The notes under the pieces are model-generated. The model did not search any database. It was not told the origin of the DNA and saw only the letters and a list, made by a program, of their open reading frames with translations. Source: Mycobacterium paragordonae (GTDB lineage Bacteria > Actinomycetota > Actinomycetes > Mycobacteriales > Mycobacteriaceae). From it: DNA of 64,000 nucleotides. A program made the translations under genes and the position numbers. The stretch covers positions 5,456,001 to 5,520,000 of the forward strand of contig NZ_CP025546.1 in assembly GCF_003614435.1 (NCBI RefSeq), written 5' to 3'. Below, in pieces: positions 13,479-26,040 of the stretch (positions within the stretch are counted from its first letter, which is position 1; each line of letters begins with the position of its first letter).

Positions 13479-13949
13479 CTACGCCACTGAGACGATGCGG
13501 GCCACGACCTTGCCACCCCGGCTGACCTCGACGGTCTGTCCCGCCGCCACCCGATCGATGTAGCGGCCGGCACGGTTTCGCAATTCGTCGAGTTCGACGG
13601 GCCGACCCGCGTCCACTGGTACATCTGCGGGTGCAAGAGCCGAATTGCCGGCCGCCACTATCCGCGCCAGTATCCGACCGCCGCGCACCACGAAAAGCGC
13701 CTCTCCGGCCGCTACCCGATCGAAGCACCGCCCAGCGCGTGTCCGTAGTTCATCCAGTCCGATCCAACCGGGGTCCGCAGGCTCAACCGGCCGCGCCGGA
13801 ATCGGAGCCACCCGCCAGTCACCAACCGGCACGATCTGTGCCACCAGCTTGCCGCGCCGGACCACGTCGAGCGTTTCGCCCGCGGCGACCCGCTCGAGGT
13901 ACGCGCAGGCGTCGCTCCGGAGTTGGCCCAGGCCAATCACTTCCGGCAT
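13479..13949 (-). CDS. Orphan protein of three tandem Phd/YefM-type antitoxin DNA-binding units
   Basis: About 156 aa from the ATG at 13949, which has CGGAG just upstream; an ATG at 13970 lacks one. Three units repeat about every 55 residues: 'LGQLRSDACAYLERVAAGET', 'LDELRTRAGRCFDRVAAGEA' and 'LDELRNRAGRYIDRVAAGQT'. Each is followed by a strand pair such as 'VVRRGKLVAQIVPV'. This is the N-terminal Phd/YefM (VapB-like) fold that dimerises and binds DNA; the C-terminal toxin-neutralising tail is absent and no toxin gene is adjacent. It therefore looks like a stand-alone DNA-binding protein. It has its own promoter with a TetR operator in the spacer, linking it to the mce regulon. Confidence 0.72.
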   Translation of the reverse strand: MPEVIGLGQLRSDACAYLERVAAGETLDVVRRGKLVAQIVPVGDWRVAPIPARPVEPADPGWIGLDELRTRAGRCFDRVAAGEALFVVRGGRILARIVAAGNSALAPADVPVDAGRPVELDELRNRAGRYIDRVAAGQTVEVSRGGKVVARIVSVA

Positions 13950-13998
13950 CTCGCTCCGATCCTCGCGCATGACCGACGTGGCTGCGGGTCACTAGCTC

Positions 13999-14029
13999 AT
14001 TATATGACTGTACGTGCGGTCAGTGTCAA
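13999..14029 (-). promoter_or_regulatory. Promoter of the triple-Phd gene with TetR operator (site A) filling the spacer
   Basis: Reverse-strand -35 TTGACA (14024-14029) and a perfect -10 TATAAT (13999-14004) are 19 bp apart. The 18-bp palindrome TGACTGTACGTGCGGTCA (14005-14022 on +) occupies that spacer. It matches three other sites around yrbEA and tetR. The -35 box abuts the mceF stop codon, so this gene is not simply read through from mce. Confidence 0.72.
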
Positions 14030-15580
14030 TCAGTTGTGCGGCGATAGCATGTCCCGCCAGCCGTCGTCCCCGGTCCTGGTCGAGTTCTCGACGGCATATC
14101 TGACTCCGTCGGGCCCGACCAATTCACCGCGCTGCGGGCTGTAGACGGCCACCGGCGGTTCATTCCCGGTGTAGACGCAGGGATTGGGCTGCTGGCCGTT
14201 GCACACCACCGAGCCCGAATGCGGCCGCGACAGCGGGTCGCTGACCGGCGGCGGCGTGCCGGGCACCCGGTCGGCGGGCGCCGGGTTCATGCCGTTGTTG
14301 ATCGACGGAGCCGGGATCACCTGTCCCGGTTTGACCGGCTGGTCGCATCGGGCCGCGGCCGCCGGGCAGGTCAGAATCTGATTCGGGTCGCCGTACCAGG
14401 GGTTGGTGCCTGCTGGCTCATAGGGTTTGGAGTCGCGGCATTCCCGCGGCGTTGCAGCACGTTTGCCGGGCACGTCGACGCACGGCAGGTTTCGCGCTCC
14501 GCGCACGGCGTTGGACGGAGTGTCCTGCGGGATCTTGCAATACGTTCCGGCCGGCATCGGCTGGAGGCTGGTGTCTGCCGGGGACCGCCACTGCGGCGCC
14601 GGGAGGAAACCGGTCAGACATGGTGGCGGCTGATTGATCGTCAGGTGAGTGCCTAGCGAGGCGAACCCGGGAAACGCCGACGTCACCGTCTGGCCTTCGG
14701 AGGCACCCTGCGGATAGGCGACCAGCAGTTGCTCGACGCCCTTGTGGTACCGCTTGAGCATTTCCAGCACGATCTCCAGATTCGCCAGTGTCTGCGGCAG
14801 CGACTCGCGCACATCGCTGAACACCGCGTTCACCAGATCGGTGGTCGGCGTCGCCTGGTTCAGGATGCTCTGTACGTGCGGATCGTTCTCCGCGGCCTGC
14901 GCGGCGAGGGTGTCCAGGTTGTGCGACCAGCGCCCGATCGCGTCACCGGACTCGACCTGGCTGTCGATGATCGGCCCGGAGTTCTGGATGATGTCGTCGA
15001 TTTCGGTCATGTTGGCTTTGAAGTCGCCGGCGATCGCCTGCGTCGCATCGACCAGCCGCTGCAGCGCCGGCCCCAATCCGCCTACGGCTTGGGCTGTTTC
15101 GTCGAGCAGCGCCGGAATCTTGCCGGTGGGCAGCGCGGCCAGACCGCGGTTGGCGGCGTCCAGCGCCGGCCCGATCTCACTGGGCACGGTGCCTTTGTTG
15201 ATGGTTTGTCCGGGCGAGAAGTACCTACCCGGGTTGCCCGCCGACACCAGGTCCAGGTACTGCTCGCCGACCGCCGACATGGAACGGACGTTGGCCGACG
15301 CGTCGACTGGGATTTTGAAGCGTTCCGCGATGCTCATCGTCGCGAGCGCACCGTTTTCCGTCGGCTCGACGGAAGTGACCGTGCCGATGGTTTCTCCGCG
15401 ATAGGTGACGTTGGCCGTCTTGTACAGACCGCCGGAGGTGGGCAGGGCGGCGTGCAACGTGTACTGGCCGATGCCCGCTGCGGTGGGAATCCGTAAGTAG
15501 TACCAGCCCAACGCAACTGCCGTGACCAGACTGATCAGGGTGAACAGGAAGATCTGGCGCCAGATGAAGCGAGTCAGCAT
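14030..15580 (-). CDS. mceF: MceF, mammalian-cell-entry family protein
   Basis: 516 aa, last gene of the mce operon. One N-terminal membrane helix ('IFLFTLISLVTAVALGWYYL') is followed by the MCE/MlaD domain ('GGLYKTANVTYRGETIGTVTSVEPTENG', then 'GEQYLDLVS'). Long helical stretches and a Pro/Cys-rich C-terminal tail with about 8 Cys follow. Mce proteins form a periplasmic tunnel that brings lipids (sterols or fatty acids in known operons) to the YrbE permeases. Its ATG lies inside the end of mceE (7-bp overlap). Confidence 0.92.
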   Translation of the reverse strand: MLTRFIWRQIFLFTLISLVTAVALGWYYLRIPTAAGIGQYTLHAALPTSGGLYKTANVTYRGETIGTVTSVEPTENGALATMSIAERFKIPVDASANVRSMSAVGEQYLDLVSAGNPGRYFSPGQTINKGTVPSEIGPALDAANRGLAALPTGKIPALLDETAQAVGGLGPALQRLVDATQAIAGDFKANMTEIDDIIQNSGPIIDSQVESGDAIGRWSHNLDTLAAQAAENDPHVQSILNQATPTTDLVNAVFSDVRESLPQTLANLEIVLEMLKRYHKGVEQLLVAYPQGASEGQTVTSAFPGFASLGTHLTINQPPPCLTGFLPAPQWRSPADTSLQPMPAGTYCKIPQDTPSNAVRGARNLPCVDVPGKRAATPRECRDSKPYEPAGTNPWYGDPNQILTCPAAAARCDQPVKPGQVIPAPSINNGMNPAPADRVPGTPPPVSDPLSRPHSGSVVCNGQQPNPCVYTGNEPPVAVYSPQRGELVGPDGVRYAVENSTRTGDDGWRDMLSPHN

Positions 15581-16719
15581 TGTCTGTCCGCCCGTTCGAC
15601 CAGCGGGCCGCCGGGGGCGTCGTTGGGGTTCGGCGTGTAGCGGACGTCGGGAATCATCGTCTCCGGGTCACGGCCCCAGGATTGCTCGAGTGCGCGCAGC
15701 GCTCCGGAGAAGCCCGTCCCGGTGAGGACAGCGTTGTCGACGGCACTCATGGTGAGGTCGAGCGTGAGCGACAGGTTGAAGTAGTCGCCGCGGAACGCCT
15801 TGGGCACGGAGTCGACGTCGAACGGCCGGACCAGCATCAGCTTCAGCGCCTGGACCAGATACGGTGCGGCGCGGCCGAACTCCCGCAACGGACACTGCAG
15901 CGCCACCAGGTCCTGGTGCAGGTCGCCACGCGAGGGCGACAGGTACTGGTTGGCGACCTCGCCGAGTCGCCCCACCGAGTCGACCGCATTGATCAGCAGA
16001 TTTTGCTTGTCCGCGAAATGCTTGAGCAGCGGCGGGAAATCGGTGAGAACCCGGTTGAGAACATCCGCGCGACGACCCACATAACTCAGCAGCCGGTTGC
16101 TGGAGTCGATCGCCCGCGTGATGTCGTAGCGTTGCTCGTCGAGCCGGGCGGTGAACGTGTCCAGCTTCCCGAGGAATGCCCTGAGCTCGTTGGCCCGACC
16201 ATGCACGATGTCGTAGACCTCGTTCTGCAACACTTCCACATTCGGCACGCCGCCCCCGCGCAAGATCATGGCCAGACTCGCCAGCGTCTGCTCGGTCGTC
16301 GGATACGTTGACGTGTTCTTCAGCGGGATGGTGTCTCCCGGCCGCAGCCGCTCGGAAGACGGATCGGGTGGCGCGGCCAGCTCGATGTGTTGTGAGCCCA
16401 GCAGGCTGGTCTGCCCGATCTTGGCCGTGGCGTTCCTGGGAAGTTTGACGTTCTTGTCGAGGCGAAGCGTCAGGGTCGCTACCCAGTTCTTCAATTCGAT
16501 CGCGCGCACCGTCCCGACGAACACATCGGCGACCCGGATCCGGCTGTTGGTGTTCAGGGCGAGCGTGTCGGCCATCTGCACGTAGACCGTGTAGGAGCCG
16601 GACCCGCTACCCGGACCGCCGGGCATCGGAATATTAGCTACGCCACGCCAATTCGCGCACGAGGTGAGTGCCAGGGTGGACACGACGAGGGCCAGCGCCT
16701 GGCGGATGCGGGCTTTCAT
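15574..16719 (-). CDS. mceE: MceE, lipoprotein subunit of Mce complex
   Basis: 381 aa from the ATG at 16719, which overlaps the mceD stop (ATGA). Signal peptide with lipobox 'LVVSTLALTSCAN' marks it as the Lpr/MceE lipoprotein of the complex. The MCE domain is 'YTVYVQMADTLALNTNSRIRVADVFVGTVRAIEL', with 'GQTSLLGSQHIEL' closing it. A long helical region follows. The open frame runs back to 17244, but that extension lies within mceD and is low-complexity, so it is rejected. Confidence 0.92.
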   Translation of the reverse strand: MKARIRQALALVVSTLALTSCANWRGVANIPMPGGPGSGSGSYTVYVQMADTLALNTNSRIRVADVFVGTVRAIELKNWVATLTLRLDKNVKLPRNATAKIGQTSLLGSQHIELAAPPDPSSERLRPGDTIPLKNTSTYPTTEQTLASLAMILRGGGVPNVEVLQNEVYDIVHGRANELRAFLGKLDTFTARLDEQRYDITRAIDSSNRLLSYVGRRADVLNRVLTDFPPLLKHFADKQNLLINAVDSVGRLGEVANQYLSPSRGDLHQDLVALQCPLREFGRAAPYLVQALKLMLVRPFDVDSVPKAFRGDYFNLSLTLDLTMSAVDNAVLTGTGFSGALRALEQSWGRDPETMIPDVRYTPNPNDAPGGPLVERADRQC

Positions 16720-18299
16720 GAGCCCGCTCCTGCCGCCACGGCCGCCTCCGCGGGCAACGGCGGTCCGGGCAGCGCCGGGGCCGGTGCGAGCGGGCCCGGG
16801 ATCACCCCCGGCCCGGGTGGCGGCGGCGGAATGGGCACCTGCGCCTGCAGGCCGATCGGCGGCAGTACCGGGTACTCGTCGTAGGCGTTCGGTGGGCCGG
16901 GCGGGGTCTGCAGCCCCGACTCCGGTGGCGCGATGTCCGTGCCGCCCATCAGTTCGGCCAGTGATTCGGGGGTCAGCAGGCCCGCCGTGATCGGCCCCAC
17001 CTGGGCGCCCTGCATGCCTGGCGCGACCACCCAGCCGGGCTGGGTGTTGCGGTGCGAGAAGGGGGTGTCGGGTACCCAGATCCCTGGCACCGTGGTGTCT
17101 TTGTAGCCGTTCGGCGGCTGCAACCGCGGCTCGGAGTAGGCGACCTCTTTGGGGAGCGTCTCGGCCGTGCTGAACAGGTTCAAGCCAAAGGGCAGGTAGT
17201 TGAACTTGATCGCATCGAGAACGGGCGCCAGATATTGCGCACACAACTCGGCCGAGTCTTGGTAGCCCAGTCGGCTACCGGCCTGAATCATGCTGCACAT
17301 GAACTGCATTGGGTTCGCGAAGTTGGGGATGGCCGGTATCGACATGACCGCGCCGTGGGACGGGTGGTAGATCTGGCTGAGGTTGGTCTCCAGAGTCGGC
17401 AGCACGTGCAGGGCGGTTTCCAGACCGTTCAGCGGTTCGGGTTGGACCAGCGTGGTGGTCAGGGTGGACAGGTTGCCGATGTCCTGGGCGAGCACCTCAC
17501 GGTTCTGGGTCAGGAAGGGACGCAGCGTGGCGAGCAGCCCGTCGAACTGCTGAAGGGCATCGGCGAGCGCACGATCGGAACTGGTCAGTTTGTCGGTGAA
17601 TTGGGCCAGGTTGGTGTTCAGCGCGACGAACTGCCTGTCGTCCTTGTGCAGCGCGTTGACGAACCGCGCCAGACTGCGCACCACCGCGAAGAAGTCACCC
17701 CGGCCCTGGTTCAGGGCGGTCAGCGCTCGCGACAGGCTGTCCAGCGTGGTGTTGAACTGCTTGCCCTTGCCGGCCAGCCCATCGGCGAAAGACTCGATCA
17801 CGTCGCCGAACGGGCCCTTGGGCTGTTCGGGTGTCGGACCCAGCTTGTCGATGATGTTGGCGACGCTGGCGCGCAGTTCATCCCACTCCGTCGGCACCTG
17901 GGTGCGCTCGATGGGAATCACCGCGTGGTCGGTCATCACCGGACCACCCCGATAGGGGGGCTCCAACTGAATGCTGCGGGATGCCACCAAAGTTGGGTTG
18001 ACGATCACCGCGGACGCGTTGGCGGGCACCTTGTATTTGTTGGCGTAGTGAAACGTCACCTTCATCTTGTCGCCGGCCGGTTCGATGGAGTCGATGGAAC
18101 CGACCCGCACGCCCATGATCTGGACTTTGTCACCGGAGTACAGCGCGATCGCCGTGGGCAGGTAGGCGACCACGGTGTTGTTGCTCAGCTTCTGATAAAG
18201 CTGCCAGCCGACGAATGCGGCGACCAGGCCCAGCACCACCACCACCGACGCGATGAGGTTGCGGGTCCGCATCCTGCGGTGCGCGATATTGATGCTCAA
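16716..18299 (-). CDS. mceD: MceD, mammalian-cell-entry family protein
   Basis: 527 aa with a TTG start at 18299 that overlaps the mceC stop (TTGA); an internal ATG at 18272 is the alternative. N-terminal helix 'LIASVVVVLGLVAAFVGW', then MCE domain ('YLPTAIALYSGDKVQIMGVRVGSIDSIEP', 'TLVASRSIQLEP'). A helical needle region and an extremely Pro-rich C-terminal tail ('PIPPPPPGPGVIPGPLAPAP') follow. Subunit of the hetero-hexameric Mce tunnel. Confidence 0.92.
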   Translation of the reverse strand: MSINIAHRRMRTRNLIASVVVVLGLVAAFVGWQLYQKLSNNTVVAYLPTAIALYSGDKVQIMGVRVGSIDSIEPAGDKMKVTFHYANKYKVPANASAVIVNPTLVASRSIQLEPPYRGGPVMTDHAVIPIERTQVPTEWDELRASVANIIDKLGPTPEQPKGPFGDVIESFADGLAGKGKQFNTTLDSLSRALTALNQGRGDFFAVVRSLARFVNALHKDDRQFVALNTNLAQFTDKLTSSDRALADALQQFDGLLATLRPFLTQNREVLAQDIGNLSTLTTTLVQPEPLNGLETALHVLPTLETNLSQIYHPSHGAVMSIPAIPNFANPMQFMCSMIQAGSRLGYQDSAELCAQYLAPVLDAIKFNYLPFGLNLFSTAETLPKEVAYSEPRLQPPNGYKDTTVPGIWVPDTPFSHRNTQPGWVVAPGMQGAQVGPITAGLLTPESLAELMGGTDIAPPESGLQTPPGPPNAYDEYPVLPPIGLQAQVPIPPPPPGPGVIPGPLAPAPALPGPPLPAEAAVAAGAGS

Positions 18300-19717
18300 C
18301 TCTGACCTCCCGTCGTTCCTTCGGTGCGCGCGCCCGGTGGCGCATTGGGCGGCAGCGGCACCGGTGTGCCCGGGACGTCTGGCGGCGGCTCACCGGGGCG
18401 GCCGGCGATCGGGATCCCCGGCGTCGGAGGTAGGCCGTTCGGGTTCGGCGGCGAGGTCTGTACGTCGAGCGGGGCCGGGAAGCTGCCGCCGAACGGACCC
18501 ACGTCAACGCCCGCGCAGGGCAACGGATTCCACGGGCGTGGCAACGCGTCGGCCGCCGGGGTATACGAACACGCGGTTCCTGGTGGGACGGCCGGCCCGG
18601 GGTGCTCCGGGGTGCCTTCCAGCACCTGCGGCGCGGGAGGTGGAGCGCCGTTGGGGAACCGGGTGCCGTTGGGATCGGGGAAGCGGAACGCGGGAAGGCC
18701 GGCGCTGCGCCAGAATTCCTCCGGATCCAGGCCGCGCTTCTTGAACGCGGCATCGACGAACGGCTGCAGCATCCAGAACGGCAGCAGGTTGGACAGGACG
18801 ATCTTGAAGAACGGCCCCGACGCGACGGACTCGCCCAGCCCCGCGGCGAATTGGCTTACGAACGTGAGCGTTTGAGCCAGATCGTCCTTGCGCTGTACCA
18901 GCACGTCGGTCAGGGTGTGCAGCTGCTCCAGCGCCGCGTTCAGGTTCGGGTTGTCGTTGATGAATCCCTTTATCTGTGCCGCAACACCCGAAATGTTCTG
19001 TAGCAGAGAGTCGATGGCCCGGCCGCGTTCGTTGAAAGCCACCAGCAGTGTCTTTGCGTTGACCAGCAGTCGGTTGATCTGTTCGCTGCGGTCACCGAGC
19101 ACGCTGGCTACCTGATTGGCTTGCGCGAGCAGATGTTTGATCTCGTCATCGCGTTTGCCGATAGTGTCGGAGAACCTGGCCACGCCGTCGAGGGCGGCAC
19201 TGATGTGCGGGTAGGTCTGATCGATGGTCTGGGACAGGACATTCAGCGATTGCTTGACGGTGTCGATGTTCCATCCGGTTGCGGCCCTGGTGATGTCGAA
19301 GTTCGCGTCGTAGAGCTGATAGGGCGTAGTGCTTTGGCCCAGCGGCAGCACACCTCCGGGCCGCAGGACCTTGGTTCCCCGCGGCTCGATCTCGAGTACT
19401 TTCTTACCCAGGATGGTGTCCGTCTTGATCGCCAGCCGGCTTTCGGTGCCGATTTTGTTGCCGCCGATGGAGAATTTGACCAGGACGTGGTCGCCCTCGA
19501 CCTCGATGCCCTCCACTTTTCCGACATTGACCCCGGTGATGCGCACCTTGTCGTTTTTGTTCAACTGACCCGATTCGGTGAACTGCCCGTAGAAGGCCGG
19601 GGTCGCGAACATCATCGGGACGCTGGTGAAGCTCTGGCCGACGATTACGACGAGCACCAGTACCGCGATGCCCATCAGACCGACCCGGTTGCGGTTGAAT
19701 TCGGTGAGTGTCCTCAT
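18296..19717 (-). CDS. mceC: MceC, mammalian-cell-entry family protein
   Basis: 473 aa from the ATG at 19717, which overlaps the mceB stop as ATGA; the frame extends to 19795 but without protein-like sequence. N-terminal 'MRTLTEFNRNRVGLMGIAVL' with a membrane helix, MCE domain ('FTESGQLNKNDKVRITGVNVGKVEGIEV', 'ILGKKVLEIEPRG'), helices, then a Pro/Gly-rich tail. The N-terminus MRTLxExNR is typical for MceC. Subunit of the lipid-import tunnel. Confidence 0.92.
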   Translation of the reverse strand: MRTLTEFNRNRVGLMGIAVLVLVVIVGQSFTSVPMMFATPAFYGQFTESGQLNKNDKVRITGVNVGKVEGIEVEGDHVLVKFSIGGNKIGTESRLAIKTDTILGKKVLEIEPRGTKVLRPGGVLPLGQSTTPYQLYDANFDITRAATGWNIDTVKQSLNVLSQTIDQTYPHISAALDGVARFSDTIGKRDDEIKHLLAQANQVASVLGDRSEQINRLLVNAKTLLVAFNERGRAIDSLLQNISGVAAQIKGFINDNPNLNAALEQLHTLTDVLVQRKDDLAQTLTFVSQFAAGLGESVASGPFFKIVLSNLLPFWMLQPFVDAAFKKRGLDPEEFWRSAGLPAFRFPDPNGTRFPNGAPPPAPQVLEGTPEHPGPAVPPGTACSYTPAADALPRPWNPLPCAGVDVGPFGGSFPAPLDVQTSPPNPNGLPPTPGIPIAGRPGEPPPDVPGTPVPLPPNAPPGARTEGTTGGQS

Positions 19718-20754
19718 TGGGCCGTGCACCTGCCCGTCGACTGCTTCCAGATCCGGACCGTGCGAACCGGGCCGCCGCCCTGCAGTCCGTTCCACCGGAT
19801 GGAGAGGTCGCAGAGGTAAAAGTTCACCCAGTCGCCGTACAGACCGATGCTGCGTCCGATCAGGTTCAGCGCGGTGGGGGTCTTGTGGATCAGGTCACTG
19901 AGCTGCTCGCGTTGATCGATGAGCGGCTGCTGGAAGGCCTGCAGGTAGTTGATCTCCTTGTGCAACAGCGCACGGTTGTCCGCCAGCAGTTCCGACACCG
20001 TGCCGGCGGCGTTGCTGATGTTGGCCAGTCCCGCCGCCAGCGGATCGGCGTGGTTCTCCAGACCGGTGATCAGCCTCTCGAAGTTGTCGATCGTCTCGTC
20101 GAACTCCTGGCGGTGCCGAACAGTGGTGTCCAGCACGATGTTCAGATTCTTGACCACCTCGCCGATCGCCTCGTCGCGTTCGGCGAGGTGCGAGGTGAGC
20201 TGCGCGGTCTGGTCCAGGATGTCGTTGATGGTTCCGCCCTGACCCTGGAACACGGTGATGATCGACGAGGCGATGGTGTTGACCTTGTCCGGTTCCAGGG
20301 CCTTGAACAGCGGCTTGAATCCACCAATCAGGGCGTCGAGGTCCAGGGCCGGTGACGTCCGGGACAGCGGAATCAGTCCGCCCGCTGGCAATATCTGGTC
20401 TGCTCCGTCACCCATCCCCCGCTTGAGTTCGACGAAGCGGTTGCCGAGCAGGTCGAGATAGCGGATCTGCGCGGTGGTCGACTGGTACAGCTGGATCGAG
20501 CGGTCGATGGCGAAGTCGACCCGCACCCGGTTGCCACCATCGATCAGGTTTACGGATTTGACCTTGCCGATCTCCACTCCGGAGGCGCGCACGAACTGGC
20601 CGTCTTTCAGGCCGCTGCCGTTGGCGAACTCCGCGGAATAGGTGTTGGTGCTGATGAAGCGCAGCTGCGCGAACACCACGAAGATCGATACGACGATCAG
20701 GGTCAGCACCAGCGAGACGATGCCGAGTTTGATTGCGCTGCCGGTGATTTTCAT
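19714..20754 (-). CDS. mceB: MceB, mammalian-cell-entry family protein
   Basis: 346 aa from the ATG at 20754, overlapping the mceA stop (ATGA). N-terminal MKITGSAIKLGIVSLVLTL with membrane helix. MCE domain: 'YSAEFANGSGLKDGQFVRASGVEIGKVKSVNL' and 'YLDLLGNRFVELKRG'. A helical region and a short C-terminus with two Cys ('FYLCDLSIRW', 'STGRCTAQ') follow, as usual for MceB (about 340 aa). Part of the Mce complex in the cell envelope. Confidence 0.93.
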   Translation of the reverse strand: MKITGSAIKLGIVSLVLTLIVVSIFVVFAQLRFISTNTYSAEFANGSGLKDGQFVRASGVEIGKVKSVNLIDGGNRVRVDFAIDRSIQLYQSTTAQIRYLDLLGNRFVELKRGMGDGADQILPAGGLIPLSRTSPALDLDALIGGFKPLFKALEPDKVNTIASSIITVFQGQGGTINDILDQTAQLTSHLAERDEAIGEVVKNLNIVLDTTVRHRQEFDETIDNFERLITGLENHADPLAAGLANISNAAGTVSELLADNRALLHKEINYLQAFQQPLIDQREQLSDLIHKTPTALNLIGRSIGLYGDWVNFYLCDLSIRWNGLQGGGPVRTVRIWKQSTGRCTAQ

Positions 20755-22058
20755 GGGTTGATCGTGTTGTCCCCGACTTGGCGGCCCCACACGTACTCGA
20801 GTGCGTATGGCGAACCGGTGTCCACGTGGTTGTACGGTGCGAGGCTGGCGCCGGTGTCCACCACCAGGCTCGGCGCCGGCCAGAAGTCATGGTTGATCGG
20901 CTGCCAACAGCCCGGCGCGCCGCCCGGTCCACCATGGGCGTTCACCCGCGGCAGATTCTCCGGATAGGTATAGGGATTCGGTGAACCGCCGACCAGCCCG
21001 GCCACCCCCAGGAGTCCCTGCGAGAGCACCGCGCCGGTCAGCCCGGGCAGCGTCAGGATGCCACCCAACCCCGACGTCAGTTCGGTCATGGTTTTCAGCC
21101 CGTAGCCGTTGCCGCCGCCCGTCGTCGCGTATGCCGCCGGCTCGGCGTCGCGGTAATTCCGGATGGTGCAGAAGATTTCGGGACTGTAGGTGTCGAACAG
21201 CTGGGCGGTCGGAAGCAGATCGGAGATGCCGCGCTGCAGGTAGGGCCCACCCCGGGTGAAGATGTCTGCACCGGTGTCTCCCAGGCCGGCGGCGGCCAGC
21301 AGAGCGGAATCCAGTTCGGCTTCCTGCCGGTGCAGTGTGCGCGCGGTCACGACCGCGTGGTCCAGGGCGTTGAAGAGATCCGGCGCGGCGTTGTTGTAGG
21401 TGTCGGCCAGGGCGGCGAGCTGCTGAATGTCGTGCCGCACCTGCGGCATTCGGGGGTTGATGTCGTCGAGGATGGCGTTGGCGTTGACGATCGACTGCCC
21501 GAACTTGTCGCCCAGCCCGGCCAGGGCCTGCGCGGCCGCGGACAACGTCAAGTTCAGCTTGATCGGGTCAACCTTCTCCGCTATCGCGGTGAGGGTCTCG
21601 AAAAGGGTATTGAACTCGGTGGTCACCGACCTCGCATCGATCTCCTGCTTCGATGAAATACGCTGCGCCGTAGGATTTTTCGGAGAGTTGAGGGATACGA
21701 ACTTGTTGCCGAAGACGGTGGTGGCCTTGATGTTGGCCTCCACATTGGCCGGAATCAGCCTGATGTACTCCGGATTGACTTCCATCGAGAACTTGGCCAC
21801 CGGCACGCCGTCGCGCTGGATCTCGGAGATGTTGGTGACACGGCCGATTTCGACCCCGTTGTAGGTGACCTTCGATCCCGGGTCCATCACCAGGCCGGCC
21901 CGGGGAGCCACCATGGTCAGCGGCGTCTTCGGCGTCAGCTTGCCCCGGAACTGAAACCACACGAATCCCAACACAACTGAGAAGACGACGAGGAATGCCA
22001 CCGCGGCGGTCTTGTACGGCGGGATGCGCGGTGGATTCTCTTTGACTGGGGCGGTCAT
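20751..22058 (-). CDS. mceA: MceA, mammalian-cell-entry family protein
   Basis: 435 aa. Membrane helix near residues 13-32 ('TAAVAFLVVFSVVLGFVWF'). MCE domain has 'APRAGLVMDPGSKVTYNGVEIGRVTNI' and 'VFGNKFVSLNSP'. The C-terminus 'ALEYVWGRQVGDNTINP' is the conserved MceA ending. It starts 2 bp after yrbEB and overlaps mceB by 4 bp. Which numbered mce operon this is cannot be settled from the sequence alone. Confidence 0.93.
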   Translation of the reverse strand: MTAPVKENPPRIPPYKTAAVAFLVVFSVVLGFVWFQFRGKLTPKTPLTMVAPRAGLVMDPGSKVTYNGVEIGRVTNISEIQRDGVPVAKFSMEVNPEYIRLIPANVEANIKATTVFGNKFVSLNSPKNPTAQRISSKQEIDARSVTTEFNTLFETLTAIAEKVDPIKLNLTLSAAAQALAGLGDKFGQSIVNANAILDDINPRMPQVRHDIQQLAALADTYNNAAPDLFNALDHAVVTARTLHRQEAELDSALLAAAGLGDTGADIFTRGGPYLQRGISDLLPTAQLFDTYSPEIFCTIRNYRDAEPAAYATTGGGNGYGLKTMTELTSGLGGILTLPGLTGAVLSQGLLGVAGLVGGSPNPYTYPENLPRVNAHGGPGGAPGCWQPINHDFWPAPSLVVDTGASLAPYNHVDTGSPYALEYVWGRQVGDNTINP

Positions 22059-22060
22059 GT

Positions 22061-22921
22061 CTACACGGTGAGGTTGAAGTTCGGGTTCTTGCCGTAGACC
22101 GCCATCGCGGTCAGCACAACCACGACGACGATCGTGATCAAAGACAGCCGCATCGACCGACCGACCGCCTCGCCGACCCCGACCGGCCCGCCGTGAGCGG
22201 TGTAGCCGTAGTAGGAGTGCGTGGTCATCACCACCAACGCGACGAGGATCACCTCGGCGAACGACCAGCCCACATCGTTGAGACGCAGGAACGTGTGGAA
22301 ATAGTGGTTATACGTGCCCGCGGACTGCCCGTACAAGAAAACGGTGGTGACCTGCGTGGACACGAAGGCCATGGTGATGCCCAACGCGTAGAGCGGGATG
22401 ATGACGATGAGACCCGCCACCACCCGGGTGGACGCCAGGAAGGCGATCGACCTGACACTCATCACTTCCAGCGCGTCGATCTCTTCGCTGATGCGCATGG
22501 CGCCCAGTTCGGCGGTGGCGCCGGCGCCAACCGTGGCTGCCAGCGCCTGACCGGCGGCCACCGGCGCCACGAACCGGACATTGACCATTGCGGCCAGAAA
22601 GCCGGTGAAGGCCTCGACACCGATGTTCCCCAGCGACGCGTAGCCCTGGATGGCGACCAACGAGCCCGCGGAGAGGGTGATGAACCCGACGATCGCGGCC
22701 GTGCCACCGGCCACGGCCATAGCACCGGTACCCATCCCCATCTGGGCGACCATGCGTATCAGCTCTTTGGGGTAGCGACGCAGGGCGAACGGAATCTGGG
22801 CGACCGCGGTCACCGCGAACCAGACCATCTGCCCGATCTCGAGCAACACCTTGACCGGGGCTTCGCCGTAGCGGCCGAGGTTTGCTCGGGGAAGTTTGAG
22901 ATACGTTGTGGCAGTGGCCAT
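22061..22921 (-). CDS. yrbEB: YrbEB, MlaE-like permease of Mce transporter
   Basis: 286 aa, five to six membrane helices. The MlaE signature is clear: 'GAGATAELGAMRISEEIDALEVMSVRSIAFL', with the conserved E-D-A-L-E-V loop that contacts the ATPase Mkl/MceG (encoded elsewhere). It is the second permease half and follows yrbEA after 1 bp. Inner-membrane gate for lipids delivered by MceA-F. Confidence 0.94.
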   Translation of the reverse strand: MATATTYLKLPRANLGRYGEAPVKVLLEIGQMVWFAVTAVAQIPFALRRYPKELIRMVAQMGMGTGAMAVAGGTAAIVGFITLSAGSLVAIQGYASLGNIGVEAFTGFLAAMVNVRFVAPVAAGQALAATVGAGATAELGAMRISEEIDALEVMSVRSIAFLASTRVVAGLIVIIPLYALGITMAFVSTQVTTVFLYGQSAGTYNHYFHTFLRLNDVGWSFAEVILVALVVMTTHSYYGYTAHGGPVGVGEAVGRSMRLSLITIVVVVVLTAMAVYGKNPNFNLTV

Positions 22922-22922
22922 G

Positions 22923-23723
22923 TCAGCGCCCCGTTCCGAATCTGACGCCGATTGTGGTCAGGGCCGCGTTGACCGCGAACAGGGCGATGAAACAGAGCAC
23001 AACCGTCTCGTTGACGGCCGTGCCCAGGCCTTTGGACCCGCCGCGGACGATCAACCCGCGATAACAACCGACGAGGCCGGCGATCAGCCCGAAGGTGGCC
23101 GCCTTGATGTTGGCGATCACCACTTCGGGCAGGCCGGTGAGGGCGGTCAGGGTGGAGAGATATGCACCGCTCGAGACGTTCTGCAGGTACACGCTGAACA
23201 GGTAGCCGCCGCCCAATCCGACGGCGATCACCAACCCGTTGAGCAGCACGGCGACGATCGTCGAGGCGACGACCCGGGGCAGCACCAGACGGTGGATCGG
23301 GTCGATGCCGAGCACTTCGAGGGCATCGATCTCCTCGCGGATGGTGCGCGCACCGAGGTCGGCGCAGATGGCAGTACCACCGGCGCCGGCGACGACCAGC
23401 ACCGTCACGATCGGGCCCAACTGGGTGACGGCGCCGATGCCCGCGCCGGCCCCGGAGACGTCGGCCGCACCGAACTCGGCCAGCAGGACGTTGAGGGTGA
23501 AGATGAGCAGCACGGTTTCGGGGATCGATACCGCGATGGTGGGCAGCAGCGACACCCGCATCAGGAACCAGCCGATCCAGATGAACTCGCGCCACTCGAA
23601 CGGCCGTTTCAGGGCTTTGGCGGTCAGCACGCACATTCGGAAGAACCCGCCGGCCACTTCGGTGCCCGGCCGGATCTTGTTGCCCACCCGGCCGGCCATG
23701 GTGTGTGAGGCGGTCATCGGCAT
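22923..23723 (-). CDS. yrbEA: YrbEA, MlaE-like permease of Mce transporter
   Basis: 266 aa from the ATG at 23723, which has GGGAG about 4-8 nt upstream; the frame extends to 23915 with non-protein-like sequence, so the longer version is rejected. MlaE signature: 'GAGGTAICADLGARTIREEIDALEVLGIDPIHRLVLPR'. Five to six helices. First gene of the eight-gene yrbEAB-mceABCDEF operon. A promoter with a TetR operator (site B) lies about 190 bp upstream and a second operator (site C) about 370 bp upstream. Confidence 0.94.
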   Translation of the reverse strand: MPMTASHTMAGRVGNKIRPGTEVAGGFFRMCVLTAKALKRPFEWREFIWIGWFLMRVSLLPTIAVSIPETVLLIFTLNVLLAEFGAADVSGAGAGIGAVTQLGPIVTVLVVAGAGGTAICADLGARTIREEIDALEVLGIDPIHRLVLPRVVASTIVAVLLNGLVIAVGLGGGYLFSVYLQNVSSGAYLSTLTALTGLPEVVIANIKAATFGLIAGLVGCYRGLIVRGGSKGLGTAVNETVVLCFIALFAVNAALTTIGVRFGTGR

Positions 23724-23914
23724 GGACTCCCGAAGGCGGTTGGCCGAACGGCCTTTCGGCGCTCGATTCGGCTGCTGGACATCGTATTTCGGGACACTAC
23801 GGTGTGGTGGTGAGCCGTGACGCCGTCCTGCCGGTGGACCACGTGCTTCGGCTGACCGGCAGTCCCGGTCCCCACCCGTCGGATCGATGCCGCCCGCGAT
23901 TGCGCCACCGCGCA

Positions 23915-23944
23915 ACTATGGCACTAGACCGTACGTGCAGTCAA
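23915..23944 (-). promoter_or_regulatory. Probable mce operon promoter with TetR operator (site B)
   Basis: Reverse-strand -35 TTGACT (23939-23944) and -10 CATAGT (23915-23920) are spaced 18 bp. The 18-bp palindrome AGACCGTACGTGCAGTCA (23926-23943 on +) overlaps the -35 box and spacer. The layout is the same as at site A. Confidence 0.62.
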
Positions 23945-24088
23945 CAGATTGCGAAATGTCGGTGTCGCTGCGGGATCGGGGCATCTCGATCCCGGTCGCC
24001 AGTTCGCCACGCGTACCTGGGCTGAGCAGCACATTTCGTCGAATTCCGCGATCGCCGTGTGGTTTCAGGGGGCTACGCCGCGGGACGA

Positions 24089-24106
24089 AGACTATACGTA
24101 CAGTCA
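24089..24106. promoter_or_regulatory. TetR operator (site C)
   Basis: AGACTATACGTACAGTCA, the third copy of the palindrome, lies between the tetR stop and the mce promoter, 163 bp from site B. No clear -35/-10 pair frames it; it may be an auxiliary site. Confidence 0.6.
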
Positions 24107-24173
24107 ATATCGAGCGCGTGGCGACCCAGCGGCCAATTCGCCACGCAAATCGGAAGATTCGGTGTTCAACCGG

Positions 24174-24845
24174 TCAGTTCGAGCTACCGGTCACCGCGTT
24201 GAGGCACTCGCGTACCACCGAGACGACGTCGGATGACGGACTGGCCCACTTGCTCAGACCCAGCCGGTCCAGTAAGAGTCCGCCGAGGAACACGTCCACG
24301 AAGGCGGCCCCGACTCGTTCGGGGGTTCGCGAGTCGTTGGGGTCGAACCACACCCACATCCATTCGAGCGATCCCCACAGCTGTAGTGCCGCGAGATCGA
24401 CGTCCACACTGCGGAATACACCGGAATCCACTCCGCTGCGAATCTCGTCGATGGTGAGTGCCTGCAGTTGATGGCGCAACTTGCGCACCTGCTGCATTGC
24501 CGGATCGTCCGCCAACTGAACCACCTCGCGCTGGCTTGCCACCGTCGCGTCGCGGGACATCACCTGCAGCAGTGCGGAGGTGAAAATGATTGCGGCGATG
24601 CGCTCGTGCGGGGCCCCTACCCGATCCCACACCATCCGCAACACATCGAGCTGACTGGCCAGATGGGCTTCGGTCAGCTCCCGCAGCATCTGAGCCTTGG
24701 TGCCGAAGTGGTGAACGATGGTGCCCTTCGACATGCCCAACTCATCGGCGATATCACCGATATTTGTTCTCTCATAACCACGTTCGGCGACGTAGCGGAC
24801 AAACGCGTCAAGGATCTCACTACGTCTGCCAGGTGATCTGGGCAT
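24174..24845 (-). CDS. TetR-family regulator of the mce region
   Basis: 223 aa. N-terminal helix-turn-helix 'ILDAFVRYVAERGYERTNIGDIADELGMSKGTIVHHFGTKAQML' is canonical TetR. The C-terminal ligand domain holds 'LWGSLEWMWVWFDPNDSRTPERVGAAFVDVFLGGLLLDRLGL', the pattern of lipid- or acyl-CoA-responsive TetR proteins. Start ATG at 24845 has AAAGG about 6 nt upstream. It lies upstream of yrbEA on the same strand. The four matching palindromes, one in its own promoter, make it the likely repressor of itself, the mce operon and the triple-Phd gene. Inducer unknown. Confidence 0.9.
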   Translation of the reverse strand: MPRSPGRRSEILDAFVRYVAERGYERTNIGDIADELGMSKGTIVHHFGTKAQMLRELTEAHLASQLDVLRMVWDRVGAPHERIAAIIFTSALLQVMSRDATVASQREVVQLADDPAMQQVRKLRHQLQALTIDEIRSGVDSGVFRSVDVDLAALQLWGSLEWMWVWFDPNDSRTPERVGAAFVDVFLGGLLLDRLGLSKWASPSSDVVSVVRECLNAVTGSSN

Positions 24846-24865
24846 TTAACACCTTTGGCGTAGAC

Positions 24866-24883
24866 TAACCGTACGAACGGTCT
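24866..24883. promoter_or_regulatory. TetR self-operator (site D)
   Basis: TAACCGTACGAACGGTCT, with the same 9+9 geometry as sites A-C but weaker dyad, lies 21 bp before the tetR start. A reverse-strand -10-like TATGAT lies directly upstream, so the site would cover the transcription start. Confidence 0.58.
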
Positions 24884-25014
24884 ATCATAACCATCGCCGC
24901 GTGAACATCCCCCAACGACATCCGCCTCTTAACCGGTGCAAGCGCAAGCCGGCGCGTGCATCACGCCGGCCGCGAAGAAAATTGCCCGGAGCGTCCCAGG
25001 CCAGAACTCCGGAA

Positions 25015-25332
25015 CTACAAAGCCTGCAACGGCCTACTGCGAGTGGTTGCGTCAGGGGCCGTGACGACGTACATGTTCGCACCGGGGGCGGCCTTGATTT
25101 CGCCGGTGGTGTACATCGTCATGAGTTCCCGGCCGTCGCTGTCGGCGACGCACACATAGGTGTCGGTCTCCGGGTCGTACTCGAAGCTGTCCCAAGCCAG
25201 TACAAACGCCAAGCAGTTGCCGTCGCGATCGGCGACCACGAGCTTGTGCGCGCCAGACTTCTTGAGTAGCTCCGCATCCTGCGTGCGCCGCTGAGAGACC
25301 CCGTTCTTGTGCATCGGTACGCTGTTCAACAT
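25015..25332 (-). CDS. Hypothetical protein
   Basis: 105 aa, soluble, not recognised. 'HKLVVADRDGNCLAFVLAWDSFEYDPETDTYVC' and 'SDGRELMTMYTTGEIKAAPGANMYVV' look like a compact beta-rich fold. GGGAG lies 8 nt before the ATG, and the codon use fits its neighbours, so it is probably real. The same ribosome-binding context (GGGAGCA) precedes the next gene. Function unknown. Confidence 0.6.
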   Translation of the reverse strand: MLNSVPMHKNGVSQRRTQDAELLKKSGAHKLVVADRDGNCLAFVLAWDSFEYDPETDTYVCVADSDGRELMTMYTTGEIKAAPGANMYVVTAPDATTRSRPLQAL

Positions 25333-25508: not shown

Positions 25509-25931
<423 letters not shown>

Positions 25932-26040
25932 TTCTGCTCCCGCGCAGTCGCTCGCTGCGCATGGCTTTGAGTCTGCGGCCAGGGCGGTGTGCACTCGCAC
26001 GAATCCGCCCTCCGCGCAGAGTCAACGCGGAGACGAAGCC

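Follow-up and report, generated by a model that had tools for sequence, protein, structure and literature searches.

The window analysed here, a 64,000-nucleotide stretch of the Mycobacterium paragordonae genome (contig NZ_CP025546.1, positions 5,456,001 to 5,520,000), carries on its minus strand, in the order of transcription, the gene of a TetR-family regulator (tetR), an eight-gene mce operon running from yrbEA to mceF, and phd3, a gene for three tandem Phd/YefM-type domains. Very probably an autoregulated TetR repressor blocks tetR, the mce operon and phd3 and is released by a lipid-derived signal, where binding, repression, the class of the ligand and the action of Phd3 are what we infer from the sequence. 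What emerges is a local regulon, conserved and well defined, and not a mechanism of a new kind; Phd3 is its more interesting part. The features on which the argument depends are the following:

24174-24845, minus: tetR, encoding a predicted repressor of 223 amino acids with TetR_N and TetR_C_24 domains
14030-23717, minus: mce operon, eight genes, gene order kept in relatives
13479-13970 (frame; likely start 13949), minus: phd3, three tandem Phd/YefM-type domains
14005-14022: site A, predicted operator inside the phd3 promoter, present at 13 of the 21 loci with a phd3 orthologue
23926-23943: site B, predicted operator over the -35 box and spacer of the mce promoter
24089-24106: site C, additional predicted operator in the tetR-yrbEA interval, kept by only part of the relatives
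24866-24883: site D, predicted operator adjoining the tetR -10 box, sequence AGACCGTTCGTACGGTTA
14024-14029, minus: phd3 -35 box, TTGACA, directly behind the mceF stop
13999-14004, minus: phd3 -10 box, TATAAT, as read in the window
23939-23944 and 23915-23920, minus: mce promoter -35 and -10 boxes, TTGACT-N18-CATAGT
24884-24889, minus: tetR -10 box, TATGAT, adjoining site D

A conserved palindrome at three promoters

An earlier note on this DNA had reported four 18-bp palindromes, and all four, named A to D above, are indeed present at these positions. When the window is searched with their degenerate consensus, allowing up to three mismatches, 9 matches are found where 0.94 are expected (standard deviation 1.39), and in 100 shuffles the largest count was 6, so that none of the 100 reached 9. 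Moreover, a matrix built from any three of the sites ranks the fourth within the top four of the window, with leave-one-out scores of 24-26 bits for A, B and C and 17.5 bits for D, compared with 11-13 bits for the best non-sites. Throughout the 7.2-Mb genome of the same organism, the only exact matches to the consensus are A-D; allowing as many as two mismatches raises the count to 34 strand-matches, and since 8 of these are A-D read on both strands, 26 are left, which is the background level because the same pattern read backwards gives 27. The search pattern was derived from A-D, and for this reason the genome search demonstrates the uniqueness of the sites and is not an independent discovery of them. 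The earlier note had held that a motif common at unrelated genes would speak against a regulon; the whole-genome search found that it is not common elsewhere. Chance repeats are ruled out by this uniqueness together with the conservation described below, and a genome-wide regulon by the absence of any further match at 0-1 mismatches in the same genome.

Conservation was assessed in 148 genomes of the same genus, in which a TetR orthologue was defined by E <1e-100, a close triple-Phd orthologue by at least 70% identity, and a site by a matrix score >13.5. Of the 148 genomes, 25 have the TetR orthologue, and the close triple-Phd orthologue is confined to 21 of these 25. The locus was mapped in the 24 tetR genomes other than that of the window: site D precedes tetR in all 24, and at least one site lies between tetR and yrbEA, again in 24/24, with at least two in 11/24. 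In addition, a search returned 56 named loci (49 mycobacterial, 5 from other genera and 2 unrelated weak matches), and the 49 mycobacterial ones, which partly repeat the genomes of the former set, all have both D and a site between tetR and yrbEA, at least two such sites being present in 17. Thus, the motif does recur at orthologous tetR/mce loci, as the earlier note had suggested should be checked; site C is kept in only part of the relatives. A 16-base form of the pattern has at least one match in 18 of the 25 tetR genomes versus 22 of the 123 tetR-free ones; of these 22, the surroundings of four were inspected, and the match is inside an open reading frame in three (G088, G092 and G091) and in a phd promoter in G076.

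The sites are placed with precision relative to the promoters, which agrees with the previous description of A and B as lying in or over the spacer between the -35 and -10 boxes and of D as lying at the tetR start. Site A occupies 18 of the 19 bp that separate TTGACA from TATAAT, and in 12 of the 13 genomes that combine site A with an intact phd3 the boxes TTGACA or TTGATA and TATAAT or TATACT are found at the same places. Site B covers, in the mce promoter, the -35 box together with part of the spacer, and the layout of TTGAC, operator and ATAGT is the same in the window and in 23/23 aligned relatives, many of which have the operator variant TGACTGACCGTACGGTCT. Site D, about 20 bp ahead of the tetR ATG, adjoins the -10 box and so would cover the presumed start point. 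From these positions, a dimer bound at A, B or D should exclude RNA polymerase.

phd3, its arrangements and its protein

The inclusion of the triple-Phd gene in the regulon, proposed at first from site A, is supported by the way in which its surroundings vary. Site A precedes phd3 in 13 of the 21 close orthologues, with that of the window counted; in the other eight phd3 lies only 16-86 bp behind mceF, at which distance read-through from the mce promoter could drive it. The difference between the two conditions requires at least two changes on a five-gene protein tree that has several unresolved forks, and gap length alone does not separate them, as mceF-phd3 gaps of 59-71 bp go together with site A in the M. 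gordonae group. Finally, in the genome that is most distant among the 25, G107, a two-domain Phd gene is divergent from tetR and stands behind its own copy of the motif, TTGACACTGACCGTACGTACAGTCA. Hence, there are three arrangements, namely an operator-promoter of its own, the tail of the mce operon, and divergence from tetR, that keep the Phd gene under the motif.

Regarding the protein, whose start is more likely Met8 (13949), preceded by the conserved GATCGGAGCGA, Phd3 consists of three repeats of about 40 residues. It matches the Phd/YefM N-terminal domain (PF02604) with 56.2 bits against a cut-off of 29.8, and the match covers positions 4-42 of the 74 in the profile; the C-terminal toxin-binding part is missing, and the chain stops at the third repeat. 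Each repeat has two invariant arginines (R18/R38, R76/R96 and R131/R151) in 35 aligned homologues, taken from the 120 listed of 380 matches. These we take to correspond to R10 and R31 of YefM, by our own placement and not from a computed alignment. In YefM, both residues are required for operator binding according to the accessible part of the source (PMC4803016). The structure model of Phd3 (mean predicted local distance difference test, pLDDT, 74.5; predicted template modelling score, pTM, 0.59) has three such domains and is confident within the repeats only, both linkers being of low confidence and the pairing of the domains therefore not legible. Foldseek gave no match at E <0.001, and only the matches to the 40-residue domain are meaningful, the best being the N-domain of VapB46 (40 columns, root-mean-square deviation 0.6); PADLOC had no match for Phd3.

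Pfam and NCBIfam both label Phd3 as a Phd/YefM antitoxin, and it could in principle be a working one, directed against a toxin encoded elsewhere and induced together with lipid import. This we consider unlikely, given that the Pfam match stops short of the toxin-binding part, that the protein ends at a DNA-binding repeat, and that its neighbours in the window are mceF and a Mycobact_memb protein, with no adjacent toxin gene there (downstream genes in the relatives were not searched). A toxin-free DNA-binding regulator is the likelier role. More specifically, and with a chance that we put slightly below even, Phd3 may be a transcription factor made of three antitoxin DNA-binding domains that has lost its toxin function and forms a second layer of the switch for mce lipid import, perhaps acting at the mce promoter, and that selection has kept under the same TetR through the three arrangements. 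The regulon as a whole suggests the recruitment of a toxin-antitoxin DNA-binding domain into ordinary metabolic control.

A further conserved block, approximately TTGC-N4-GTGGCGCAAAC-N2-GGGCG, is present in the mce leader (23880-23915, minus), just behind the -10 box, and varies in several relatives; it is possibly the site of a second regulator or an RNA element. It was also considered as a target of Phd3, and is altered in the two sister genomes that lack Phd3 (L092, L093), as it is in several that have it (L078, L083, L089, L090); since the block changes both with and without Phd3, it is evidence neither for nor against such a target.

The TetR protein and the proposed mechanism

The TetR of the window has the domains PF00440 and PF17932, both above the Pfam cut-offs, and is 95% identical to the TetR of two M. 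gordonae records. As is typical for the family, a palindrome lies at its own promoter (site D), and the motif also stands just before tetR in 5/5 non-mycobacterial relatives, from Nocardia (62% and 65% identity), Amycolatopsis (63% and 65%) and Catelliglobosispora (48%). The recognition-helix region, SKGTIVHHFGTK, is common to seven aligned TetRs that have the window motif, and the motif persists in relatives with this helix whose identity is as low as 48%. Two paralogues of 40% identity, both adjoining mce operons (G122, at L073, 8627, and contig C2 of G107, at L074, 4270), have instead the helix SRGLIAHHFGTK and the palindromes TGACTGTCTGCGCAGTCA and TGACTGCGCAAGCAGTCA, in which the TACG core is not kept; these loci apparently belong to a sister regulon with a palindrome of the type TGACTG-N6-CAGTCA and a changed operator core. 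It is this joint change of helix and motif core, along with the motif before tetR in 5/5 outside relatives, that makes the local TetR the predicted binder of A-D. The palindromes might alternatively be the operator of another regulator encoded elsewhere, with the neighbouring TetR a bystander, as could be read from G076, in which a site-A sequence is kept before a broken phd gene (its promoter with the -35 box kept and the -10 box lost) and no such tetR was found. This is very unlikely, because the motif is directly before tetR in 24/24 mycobacterial and 5/5 outside relatives and its core covaries with the recognition helix.

Under the repressor model, TetR dimers would bind the palindrome, near TGACYGTACGTRCRGTCA, and would cover the presumed start point of tetR at D, the -35 box and spacer of the mce promoter at B, with C as an auxiliary site nearby, and the phd3 promoter spacer at A. 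RNA polymerase would thereby be shut out at all three. The repressor would be released by a small ligand, for which an acyl-CoA, or some other product of the lipid imported by Mce, is the most likely candidate; an inducer of the acyl-CoA type is proposed with KstR2 in view, the nearest relative of TetR with a solved structure (E 1.3e-20). Lipid import, more TetR and Phd3 would then be switched on together, with Phd3 probably acting as a secondary DNA-binding regulator. That TetR at site A instead adjusts the promoter spacing and activates phd3, in the manner of MerR, is the least credible option: the 19-bp spacer with an operator inside and the near-consensus boxes recall MerR-type promoters, but TetR-family proteins are usually repressors, and B and D are placed where a repressor would exclude the polymerase. 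The predicted regulator, its operator and its three targets are now defined well enough for testing.

Several observations weigh against a single TetR regulon of this composition or are neutral to it. The co-occurrence of tetR and triple-Phd (Fisher p 8e-22) is not corrected for kinship. Eight of the 21 orthologues have no site A (G036, G080, G062, G001, G038, G048, G100 and G029), the short gaps of 59-71 bp in some site-A genomes mean that read-through might control phd3 there too, and G143 has site A with neither promoter box. G071 and G117 have tetR and mce with no Phd3 match, and in G015 the contig end falls within mceF. Conversely, G030 has a 56%-identical triple-Phd gene and no such TetR (best 28% identity), and the motif is absent from the 374 upstream bases examined. 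Lastly, the 40% paralogues retain the outer TGACTG/CAGTCA half-sites, and the helix argument covers the core only.

Known regulators and the motif beyond mycobacteria

A TetR repressor beside a mce operon is of a known kind, and the mce operons of M. tuberculosis have known regulators; what is new, as far as our searches show, is the operator, along with Phd3 as a target and the shifts in gene arrangement. The comparisons that follow draw on the accessible parts of the sources cited. KstR (Rv3574), too, is a TetR protein that represses lipid genes as well as its own gene, with a conserved palindrome over promoter boxes, but its operator is TnnAACnnGTTnnA and its predicted regulon has 74-83 genes (PMC1995591); the window TetR scores 18.8 bits with the NCBIfam KstR model, versus a cut-off of 280. 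KstR2 (Rv3557c) resembles the window TetR in having a small local regulon near its own gene, and differs in its operator, AnCAAGnnCTTGnT, in place of which the conserved site D is found at the tetR promoter, and in its 15-gene cholesterol regulon, for which no Phd gene is mentioned in the accessible text (PMC3068626). Mce3R is also a TetR-type repressor beside a mce operon, whereas it is a double TetR polypeptide with a non-palindromic operator (PMC11667970), its chain having 406 residues, and the window TetR is a single one of 223 amino acids with one TetR_N match and a palindromic site. The operator of BkaR, GTTA-N-T-N4-A-N-TAAC (PMC3920632), differs from the window motif as well. Phd3 shares the fold of the N-terminal domain of Phd/YefM/VapB46-type antitoxins and is set apart from them by three domains in tandem, the lack of a C-terminal toxin-binding part and of a toxin neighbour in the window, and the predicted TetR operator. 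A published survey looked among mycobacterial TetR genes for the motifs of conserved regulators that are divergently oriented; gordonae is unmentioned in its accessible part (PMC4482099), and an overlap of motifs is possible. In literature searches that mostly leave subscription papers outside their coverage, we found no paper joining prevent-host-death with a mce operon, and no title on the TetR-mce-Phd set or on a regulator for this additional mce operon that M. gordonae shares with related mycobacteria.

Outside the genus, a whole-genome pattern search of two Nocardia genomes found 8 motif places in the 28 kb around tetR in one and 9 in 40 kb in the other, with 2 and 4 elsewhere, while two Amycolatopsis genomes have 5 places each within 11-12 kb (one at a contig end) and 0 and 3 elsewhere; in Catelliglobosispora the tetR site alone stands out, with six others scattered. 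The motif here marks lipid-catabolism clusters (L143, L146 and L154-L158 in Nocardia; L144 and L151 in Amycolatopsis), with sites assigned to genes only in part. The Nocardia cluster encodes an acyl-CoA ligase that scores best with the FadD11 model, at a value below the cut-off, enoyl-CoA hydratases (one of them above the cut-off of a crotonase-family model; the EchA19 model stays below), a zinc alcohol dehydrogenase, aldehyde dehydrogenases and an esterase, and a site precedes a mce operon of another clade (YrbEA 38-41%). The Amycolatopsis stretches encode P450s, acyl-CoA ligases, an enoyl-CoA hydratase and a hydrolase, and no site was seen before a mce operon in those examined. Clusters of both genera indicate the kind of lipid enzymes that accompanies the motif.

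Within the mce operon of the window, all genes are on the minus strand:

22923-23717, minus: yrbEA
22061-22921, minus: yrbEB
20751-22058, minus: mceA
19714-20790, minus: mceB
18296-19795, minus: mceC
16716-18299, minus: mceD
within 15574-16728, minus: mceE
14030-15580, minus: mceF, last gene of the operon, stop at 14030

Operons mce1-8 were described by Casali and Riley (PMC1810536, accessible in part). The genome of the window, in contigs C1 and C2, has ten YrbEA-type places, which implies about ten mce-type loci, and the motif (0-1 mismatches) occurs only at that of the window; the 19.9 kb around the closest mce paralogue (YrbEA 79%) have no tetR, phd or motif. Upstream of tetR and on the same strand, positions 25015-25332 encode a 105-amino-acid protein with no Pfam match that is found in 23/24 relatives, and the product of the frame at 25509-26000 ends in about 50 residues that are nearly all Asp and Glu.

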